Assembly: GCF_027595985.1 (NCBI RefSeq)
Contig: NC_073303.1
Coordinates: forward strand, 378,727,842-378,791,841
Direction of reading: 5' to 3'
DNA from: Sorex araneus
Taxonomy: Eukaryota > Chordata > Mammalia > Eulipotyphla > Soricidae
Length of the DNA: 64,000 nt
The position numbers were made by a program, and so were the translations under genes. The notes below the pieces were generated by a model. It did not search any database and had not been told where the DNA came from. It saw nothing but the letters and a program-made list of their open reading frames with translations. Shown here in pieces: positions 10,301 through 13,300 of this stretch (position 1 is its first letter; every line of letters begins with the position of its first letter).

Positions 10301-13300
10301 ATTCCTGTTGGTAAGATTTAATTTGATATATATTTGGAGCTAGAGTAAACAGCTGATTCTACGCCTATAGATGACCGCAACGTTTTTTTGAACTTTCCCT
10401 GAATCACACTGGTAATTTATCAGTCTCACAATACTTTACGACTCTTCACTTTCAGTATGAAAATGGGACAGATAAGAAGTGTTCTTCACATGGCACCTCC
10501 CAACTGTCCTTTCCATTCGTTTGAAGATTTCCAGAAGCACTGGAACCACCTGGTAAGGAATAAACATCTATGAAGTGGTATCAGTGGCCTGCTTTTACTT
10601 TGTGTAATTTAATAGTAAGTGAGCTTTCTCTCGAGGATTTCACTTTGTTCTTAAATTTTAGTATGGCTATAAACTTCCAGAAGAGTATGGAGATATAAAT
10701 ACTCAAGTGTACTGCAGCGTGCACTTCAAAATGATGGGCGGAAGGACCTTCACATATCCTTCACACCTCTGCGAACAGTGCTCCAGCTCTCAGCCCGCCT
10801 TGCTCCTGCCTCTAACGAATCGTCAGGTTCTTCTTTCTCTAGGTCGGATGAAACTTTTTCTCCAAACTTTTTTTCTTCTTTTTCAAATGTGAGTGTTTTT
10901 TATTTTTCTTAGAATTTTTCTATTCTTAATCCTTCACTAAGTTTCTCTCCTGTTGGGTTATTTTTTTCCTTTCTCTTCCACTTTCCAGTAAAAAATAAAA
11001 ACCTTTCTATTTTTAAAAAAAAAAAAGTTTTTTTTTTTCGTGTTCTATCTTATTTGAGTATGAGCTTAAGACTATTGTCCCGTTGCTCATCGATTTGCTC
11101 AAGTGGGCACCAGTAACAAGTCTCCATTGTGAGACTTGTTACTGTTTTTGGCACTCCCAGAGAGTATGAGCTTAATAATGATAATTTATTCCTTAAGCAC
11201 TATAGCCACAATTCAGATTGCAAAACAAGTTTTAGAGTAGATAGGGTTAAAAATGTTTACAGGCTTGGCTGGATAAAGGAAGGAAGGAATCATGGGATCC
11301 CCTTAGCCGAGTGCTCCTCCCAGTGGCAGCTTGGGCTCAGCGAGAGTCTGGGATTCAGAGACTTCTTTTGAGAAGAGTGTTTAATTTTACAGGTGAAGAC
11401 TAGAGGATTGGGCTTGTACCTAACGTATATTTAGTTAAGGAAATATTTTATCTTATTTACAAATCTATACACAGAAAGATCATTAGTGCTCAAGTGAAAT
11501 TCTTCACGTTTAACTCGCCATCTTTGTCACTGTAAATTGGAATTTCAAAATGAAACAGCCAGGATGTTCATTCTCTTTCTATACTCGGCAGTTCTTAACC
11601 CAAATTATAATATAAAACTGAGTAAGAAAGGTAATCAGTTACTTCCTTTCATTAGATTCCAGAATTTTCAGAATATTTGCTTTTTTTAATTGTTCTTCAA
11701 AATTAATTTTATTTTTTTGGATGAGGGACCCTACGTGGCCGTGCTTGGAGGGAGACCTGCTCTAGAGACCCTCACCAGGGCCCGGGCCAGGCCTCCAGCA
11801 CCGAAAGATGCCCCCAGCTCACTGAGCTGACCTTCTGGGGCAGCAGAGTATTTCTTCAACAGAAAAAGTAATTGGATTTTTGGAAGAATTTCCTTTGAGA
11901 TTCAGATGAATCTGAATCTATTTGAGTTGCTTCTCTAGACAAAATATTTTGTTCCTTTTGGAGAGGCAGCCTGTTATTGTTTACAGCAGACATTTGTTTT
12001 TATAATCTGTGAGACTTAGAGCGTTGCTTTCTGATGATGGCAATACCTGGACTATCCTGGCCTGAAGTTTATGTGCAAATACAGCTGAGCTGCTCTATTT
12101 GTGAGCGTTAAAGTAGGTGTAAGTTAGTGTGAGAAAGCAAGCTTTTAGCTCTGTTTCGTGTGATGTTAATCCATGCTATGGTAGTTCGGGTTGACATCAT
12201 TACTTTTCACGGAGTGGTTGCGTGTGCTGTGTTCTGTCTGTCCAGTGAGCATTGCGTTCTTCCTTAACCTGGTCACGTACCCTCTCAGTTGCATCAGAAG
12301 TCAGCCTGTGCAGTTCTTCCCAAGAGTAGACATGGAAGACGTGTTAAAAAGCTTTTTTTCAGATTTAAAAACTAATCTGCCTCATATATGTGGATTTCCC
12401 ATCAAGATCACGTCTCAGCCTTGCTACTACACAGTGGAACTGACTAGGCCTCAGATACAGGTAAGCGCTTGTTTGTCCCCAGTTGAGTAAGTGTCCCACC
12501 ACCTCCGCCTGGGCCCACCGGCCTTCTGTGCTGGACAGCAGTCTTTTCTCCTTAGTGCAGTATTTCCATGATGCAGTCTGTTGCACTTCACTGCTCTTTA
12601 TTACTGCTGTTGATGTCCACGTGGATTAGAGAAGCTGTTGTTGATTGATTTATTGATTCTGATTTGCATGAGCTCATGGAGGGAAAGAGCATATATTCAC
12701 TTTGTAATATCAAATACTTGGCACATAATAGATATTTAAATTTAATAAAACCATTTGATTTTTCAATTAATAACCAAATAAATTACCTCAGAGGATTGTT
12801 CGGAAACGTTTTCCTTCTACATAGCCAAGTTTACTTTGAACTTCTGCCACTTTACTTGAGTCTGATTGAAGTCTTTGAATAATACCATTTCTAGAAATTT
12901 AGCATTTTTATTACAAGATGATACACTAAATCAAAGTTTGCTTTATGTGTATAAAAGAACAAGTAATAAGCAATGCTTATAAATTATAATTTCATTTATA
13001 ACCACTATATTTATAATAATCAATAGAGTAAGATTTTCTTAAAAAATAGAGAGGCCTGGGAGAGAGTACCTAAGGTGTTTACCCTGGTTTGATCCTGGGC
13101 ACGGGTGTGGTCCATGAAGTACCACCAGGAATGAACCCCTGAGCAGAGTGAGATAGCCCCTGAGCACTGCCAGGTGAGGCACAACACCCTCCCCAAATAA
13201 AATCACAAAATTGGCAGATTTTTAAATGAAAAATTTAAGGATATTTCAATAGTTGTCTTCCTCTTTTCTGACACTTGGTTTTAGATATTTCAACCAAATT

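Follow-up and report, generated by a model that had tools for sequence, protein, structure and literature searches.

A predicted U12-type AT-AC intron in the C18orf63 gene of Sorex araneus

In minor splicing, U11 pairs with the 5' splice site and U12 with the branch site, and U6atac replaces U11. Mammals possess the minor-spliceosome RNAs, and it is on this basis that we assume them in Sorex araneus. The human set of minor introns numbers 770, and the share with AT-AC ends is given as approximately 22% in one source (PMC6717393) and as 26% in Table 2 of another (PMC7367187). Conservation of U12-type introns between human and non-human vertebrates is described as at least 90% in general (PMC2831892, in part), and U12 introns are biased against phase 0 (PMC7367187, in part). 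AT-AC ends also occur in U2-type introns, and those of the sodium channel genes carry a G at +5 (PMC2831892, in part). Within the minor class, the AT-AN introns form the most sensitive subtype to loss of CENATAC, which affects 92% of them compared to 24% of G-type introns (PMC8280824, in part).

The stretch of DNA analyzed here (the window) comprises 64,000 nucleotides of Sorex araneus contig NC_073303.1 and contains C18orf63 on the plus strand, at 1322-25517. We located the exons using part of the human C18orf63 protein and found seven that join into a single open reading frame closing in a stop codon (Table 1). Because the first match starts near residue 128 of the human protein, further exons presumably lie upstream of the window start. 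The spliced gene contains a 211-residue stretch that matches the Pfam family DUF4708 with 251.5 bits over profile positions 123-274, above the gathering cut-off of 27 bits. The final coding exon scanned alone gave no Pfam match at E 0.001, and two scans of viral and prokaryote contigs for an ortholog found no relative. Five of the six introns between the seven exons are GT-AG, the exception being the one at 10754-12276. Scored as U2 donors with an approximate matrix, the five GT-AG introns reach 3.6-11.1 bits, compared to -10.3 for the exception. The coding exon in front of this intron is preceded by a TTTTAG acceptor, and its 3' end supplies the AC of a split ACG codon.

Table 1. Exons of C18orf63 and elements of the predicted U12-type intron, in window coordinates.
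Feature	Position	Strand	Remarks
C18orf63 exon	1322..1363	+	followed by GT-AG intron
C18orf63 exon	3100..3176	+	followed by GT-AG intron
C18orf63 exon	8255..8364	+	followed by GT-AG intron
C18orf63 exon	10456..10552	+	DUF4708 43.8 bits (segment 10454-10552); followed by 109-nt GT-AG intron
C18orf63 coding exon 5' of AT-AC intron, 92 nt	10662..10753	+	DUF4708 profile positions from 231
Predicted U12-type AT-AC intron in phase 2, 1523 nt	10754..12276	+	
5' splice site ATATCCTTC	10754..10762	+	8/9 against consensus ATATCCTTT
Cryptic U2-type donor GTGAGT (AATGTGAGT), strong	10889..10894	+	8.8 bits, approximate matrix
Branch site TTCCTTAAC	12260..12268	+	exact match to TTCCTTRAC
3' splice site AC	12275..12276	+	intron 3' end GGTCAC
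C18orf63 coding exon 3' of AT-AC intron, 184 nt	12277..12460	+	followed by GTAAGC donor
C18orf63 final coding exon	24525..25517	+	terminates in stop codon

Elsewhere in the window, an open reading frame on the minus strand (49571-50554) belongs to a gene of the FAM69 kinase family, with matches to PIP49_C (85.6 bits) and PIP49_N (33.1 bits). This frame is probably DIPK1C/FAM69C, the neighbor of human C18orf63, and its position beside C18orf63 is consistent with conserved synteny. A tRNA-like SINE (GGGGCTGGAGAGATAGCACAGCGGGTAGGGCG...) occurs at 13360-13530 and 13900-14000; it resembles the SINEs typical of shrews and points to a shrew-like mammal. C18orf63, the neighboring gene and the types of repeat are the features of the window that mark it as mammalian. 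Two minisatellites were also observed. The long one at 39463-41040 stays open over long distances in both directions, with a HPHPQLGHPTPQLG-like translation on the minus strand, and these open frames are probably artefacts of the repeat; the second, at 58950-59500, gives a GHWTVHAPLPGDTGPSTPLSLGTLDRPRPSPW-like repeat in translation. An Rfam scan of the window returned no matches.

The original prediction held that the protein junction calls for an intron with AT-AC ends at this position and that the reading frame closes through a split ACG codon. Indeed, joining 10753 to 12277 restores the open frame, with the codon divided as AC and G in phase 2. We compared 13,265 joins that preserve the frame and avoid stops, with donors taken from 10690-10959 and acceptors from 12200-12399, using a stretch of the human protein as a yardstick. 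The top protein score of 381 is common to at least 12 placements between which the junction can slide, and among the 12 listed, only 10754/12276 has recognized splice-site ends. The best joins with other ends scored lower, at 356 for GT-AG (n = 37), 355 for GC-AG (n = 57) and 362 for AT-AG (n = 41), and the runner-up among the 27 AT-AC joins scored 349.

The DUF4708 profile provides a yardstick that is independent of the human protein, and it favors the same junction. The two exons joined at 10753/12277 score 67.3 bits, compared to 37.0-59.8 bits for ten alternative readings. These comprise two GT-AG joins (54.9 and 55.9 bits), a GC-AG join (56.0 bits), two AT-AG joins (51.7 and 45.9 bits), read-through to 10859 (39.4 bits), joins from a donor at 10889 to 12249, 12288 and 12297 (58.6, 46.3 and 37.0 bits) and the join 10843/12245, which is the best of the ten at 59.8 bits. 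Scanned alone, the segment 10662-10760, which runs 7 bases into the intron, matches profile positions 231-261 with 38.0 bits, and the segment 12278-12460 matches positions 260-274 in its first 15 residues with 18.8 bits, a score below the 27-bit cut-off. Since the first segment reaches position 261 and the second starts at 260, the profile is ungapped over the junction. At 10752-10760 and 12275-12283 the letters (ACATATCCT versus ACGTACCCT) are such that reading on past the donor yields T-Y-P, as does the correct splice; three residues of the true junction are thereby imitated by read-through.

The termini, 5' splice site and branch motif named in the original prediction were all found in place, and its description of them needs some correction. 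It had all signals matching their consensus exactly, which is true of the branch site. The 5' splice site departs from the consensus ATATCCTTT (RTATCCTTT) at +9, which is C rather than T; positions +5 to +8 read CCTT. The branch motif had been placed 9 nt before the end of the intron. Its 3' end in fact lies 8 nt ahead of the last intron base, and the candidate branch adenosines at 12266 and 12267 lie 10 and 9 nt before that base. This spacing of 9-10 nt is slightly shorter than the optimum of 11-13 nt between branch site and acceptor (PMC3584512 and PMC6717393, each in part), and the counting convention may explain 1 nt of the difference. A second AC at 12280 comes closer to the optimum but breaks the frame. 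The pyrimidine tract, predicted to be missing, turned out not to be a discriminating feature. Pyrimidines occupy 70% of positions -23 to -4, compared to 60-80% in the five GT-AG introns of the gene, so pyrimidine content is unable to separate this intron from them; the branch site TTCCTTAAC is itself rich in pyrimidines.

According to a published rule (PMC6717393, in part), minor AT-AC introns score above 50 with the AT-AC minor 5' matrix and at least 10 points over the other matrices. With approximate matrices, the intron scores 93 as AT-AC minor, 54 as GT minor and 31 as GT major, and the rule places it among the minor AT-AC introns. The same approximate matrices give the five GT-AG introns of the gene 64-94 as GT major and 21-34 as AT-AC minor. 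Additionally, the phase 2 position of the intron agrees with the bias of U12 introns against phase 0. Taken together, the identity of the gene, the junction, the termini, the 5' splice site and the branch site support a predicted U12-type AT-AC intron. From these sequence features, we are highly confident that 10754-12276 is a minor-spliceosome intron of C18orf63, spliced from 10753 to 12277.

The main alternative to weigh is that the major spliceosome removes the intron through nearby GT and AG sites, such as 10889 with 12249, 12288 or 12297, or 10843 with 12245, with the AT-AC signals persisting as relics and the protein gaining or losing residues at the junction. With its 8.8 bits, the donor AATGTGAGT at 10889 scores like several genuine donors of C18orf63; no stop interrupts the frame ahead of this donor, and it is in phase with acceptors at 12249, 12288, 12297 and 12300, although not with 12245. 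By a crude matrix, the AG acceptors at 12245, 12288 and 12297 score 0.8, 0.0 and 3.2, compared to 0.7-6.9 for the gene's own five; the first and last fall among the latter, and cryptic major splicing is therefore possible. However, such joins lower the DUF4708 score from 67.3 to 37.0-59.8 bits and insert residues that are absent from the profile; the sequence leading up to the donor at 10889 contributes 45 of these. Relics would also be unlikely to remain near-perfect at both ends. Removal as a GT-AG or GC-AG U2-type intron near the junction was rejected on its lower join and DUF4708 scores, and we consider this explanation very unlikely. The major spliceosome could instead splice the intron in spite of its AT-AC ends, making it a U2-type AT-AC intron, for which there are precedents in SCN4A intron 21 (PMC2831892, in part) and in SYCP2 intron 5 and TAF2 intron 1 (PMC8280824, in part). 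Here, however, +5 to +8 read CCTT, and the C at +5, in place of the G of that class, argues against it, as does the exact TTCCTTAAC near the intron end. We rejected the U2-type AT-AC class on the C at +5 and find it scarcely credible.

It is also conceivable that the motifs are there by chance, with the true junction elsewhere or the gene a decaying copy. Comparable motif pairs do arise by chance: the two strands of the 64 kb hold five instances of RTATCCTT and three of TTCCTTAAC, and a blind scan of both strands for a donor, TCCTTAAC and a matching terminal dinucleotide returned six rows, four of them elsewhere and two corresponding to the intron at 10754-12276 with either AC. Motifs without a coding junction are therefore not significant, and the case for the AT-AC intron comes from a junction set by protein homology, not from the motifs by themselves. 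That homology fixes the junction independently of the motifs, and the probability of both motifs arising at one prefixed junction is 4.9e-9, given the base composition of the intron and allowing ten branch-site placements. Allowing also for the 12 placements between which the junction can slide raises this to approximately 6e-8, still below 1e-7. The joining of seven exons into one open frame with a terminal stop likewise speaks against a decaying copy. Chance motifs were rejected on their joint probability at the fixed junction, and we regard this reading as extremely improbable.

For the U12-type AT-AC intron that we favor, a splicing route can be proposed. U11 would pair with the CCTT part of ATATCCTTC, and U12 would pair with TTCCTTAAC so that a branch adenosine is bulged. 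U6atac would displace U11, and 10753 would be joined in frame to 12277. As in other AT-AN minor introns, the reaction would be expected to depend on CENATAC. Were it to fail, the intron could be retained, in which case translation would end at the TGA at 10890, the first stop on retention, which lies within the cryptic donor at 10889. Alternatively, splicing might run from this cryptic GT donor to AG acceptors in the range 12245-12300. Both kinds of outcome have a counterpart in CENATAC-depleted cells, where 92% of A-type minor introns show retention and/or use of alternative major sites (PMC8280824, in part). Judging from the gene structure, production of the C18orf63 protein probably depends on the minor spliceosome.

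What lends the AT-AC intron some interest is its host gene. In published work, C18orf63 appears among the uncharacterized genes specific to a meiosis-enriched component of human testis (PMC9792524), as a factor distinguishing preleptotene from leptotene-zygotene cells (PMC12081002) and among the oocyte genes common to chicken and human (PMC9570461). Mutants of Zrsr1 show spermatocyte arrest (PMC6717393, in part). Our literature search, which covered the main text of papers, returned no paper pairing C18orf63 with a U12 or minor intron, nothing on DUF4708 and nothing combining minor intron, meiosis, AT-AC and testis; the human C18orf63 intron may already be catalogued in intron tables. If this intron is the sole route to the full protein, C18orf63 becomes a candidate for explaining germline effects of minor-splicing defects, among them the arrest seen in Zrsr1 mutants. 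Otherwise, 10754-12276 is one more member of a class with 770 introns in human (PMC6717393, in part). A bolder idea is that C18orf63 acts at meiotic entry, in preleptotene spermatocytes and oocytes, that its output depends on CENATAC-class splicing of the AT-AC intron so that minor-spliceosome activity gates a step of early meiosis, and that some of the infertility seen in minor-splicing mutants is mediated by this gene. It strikes us as speculative and unlikely to be correct.

The intron belongs to a known class, of which it is a good further example. Like other U12-type AT-AC introns, it has a ATATCCTT 5' splice site and TTCCTTAAC approximately 10 nt from the terminal AC, lies in phase 2 and is the only one of its kind next to five GT-AG introns in the portion of C18orf63 that the window covers. 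It differs from them in the C at +9, in a spacing at the short end of the range and in its host gene, which is uncharacterized and germline-expressed. With the U2-type AT-AC introns of SCN4A, SYCP2 and TAF2 it shares the AT-AC termini. Whereas the U2-type AT-AC introns of the sodium channel genes have a G at +5, the C18orf63 intron combines a C at this position with the U12 branch site consensus.
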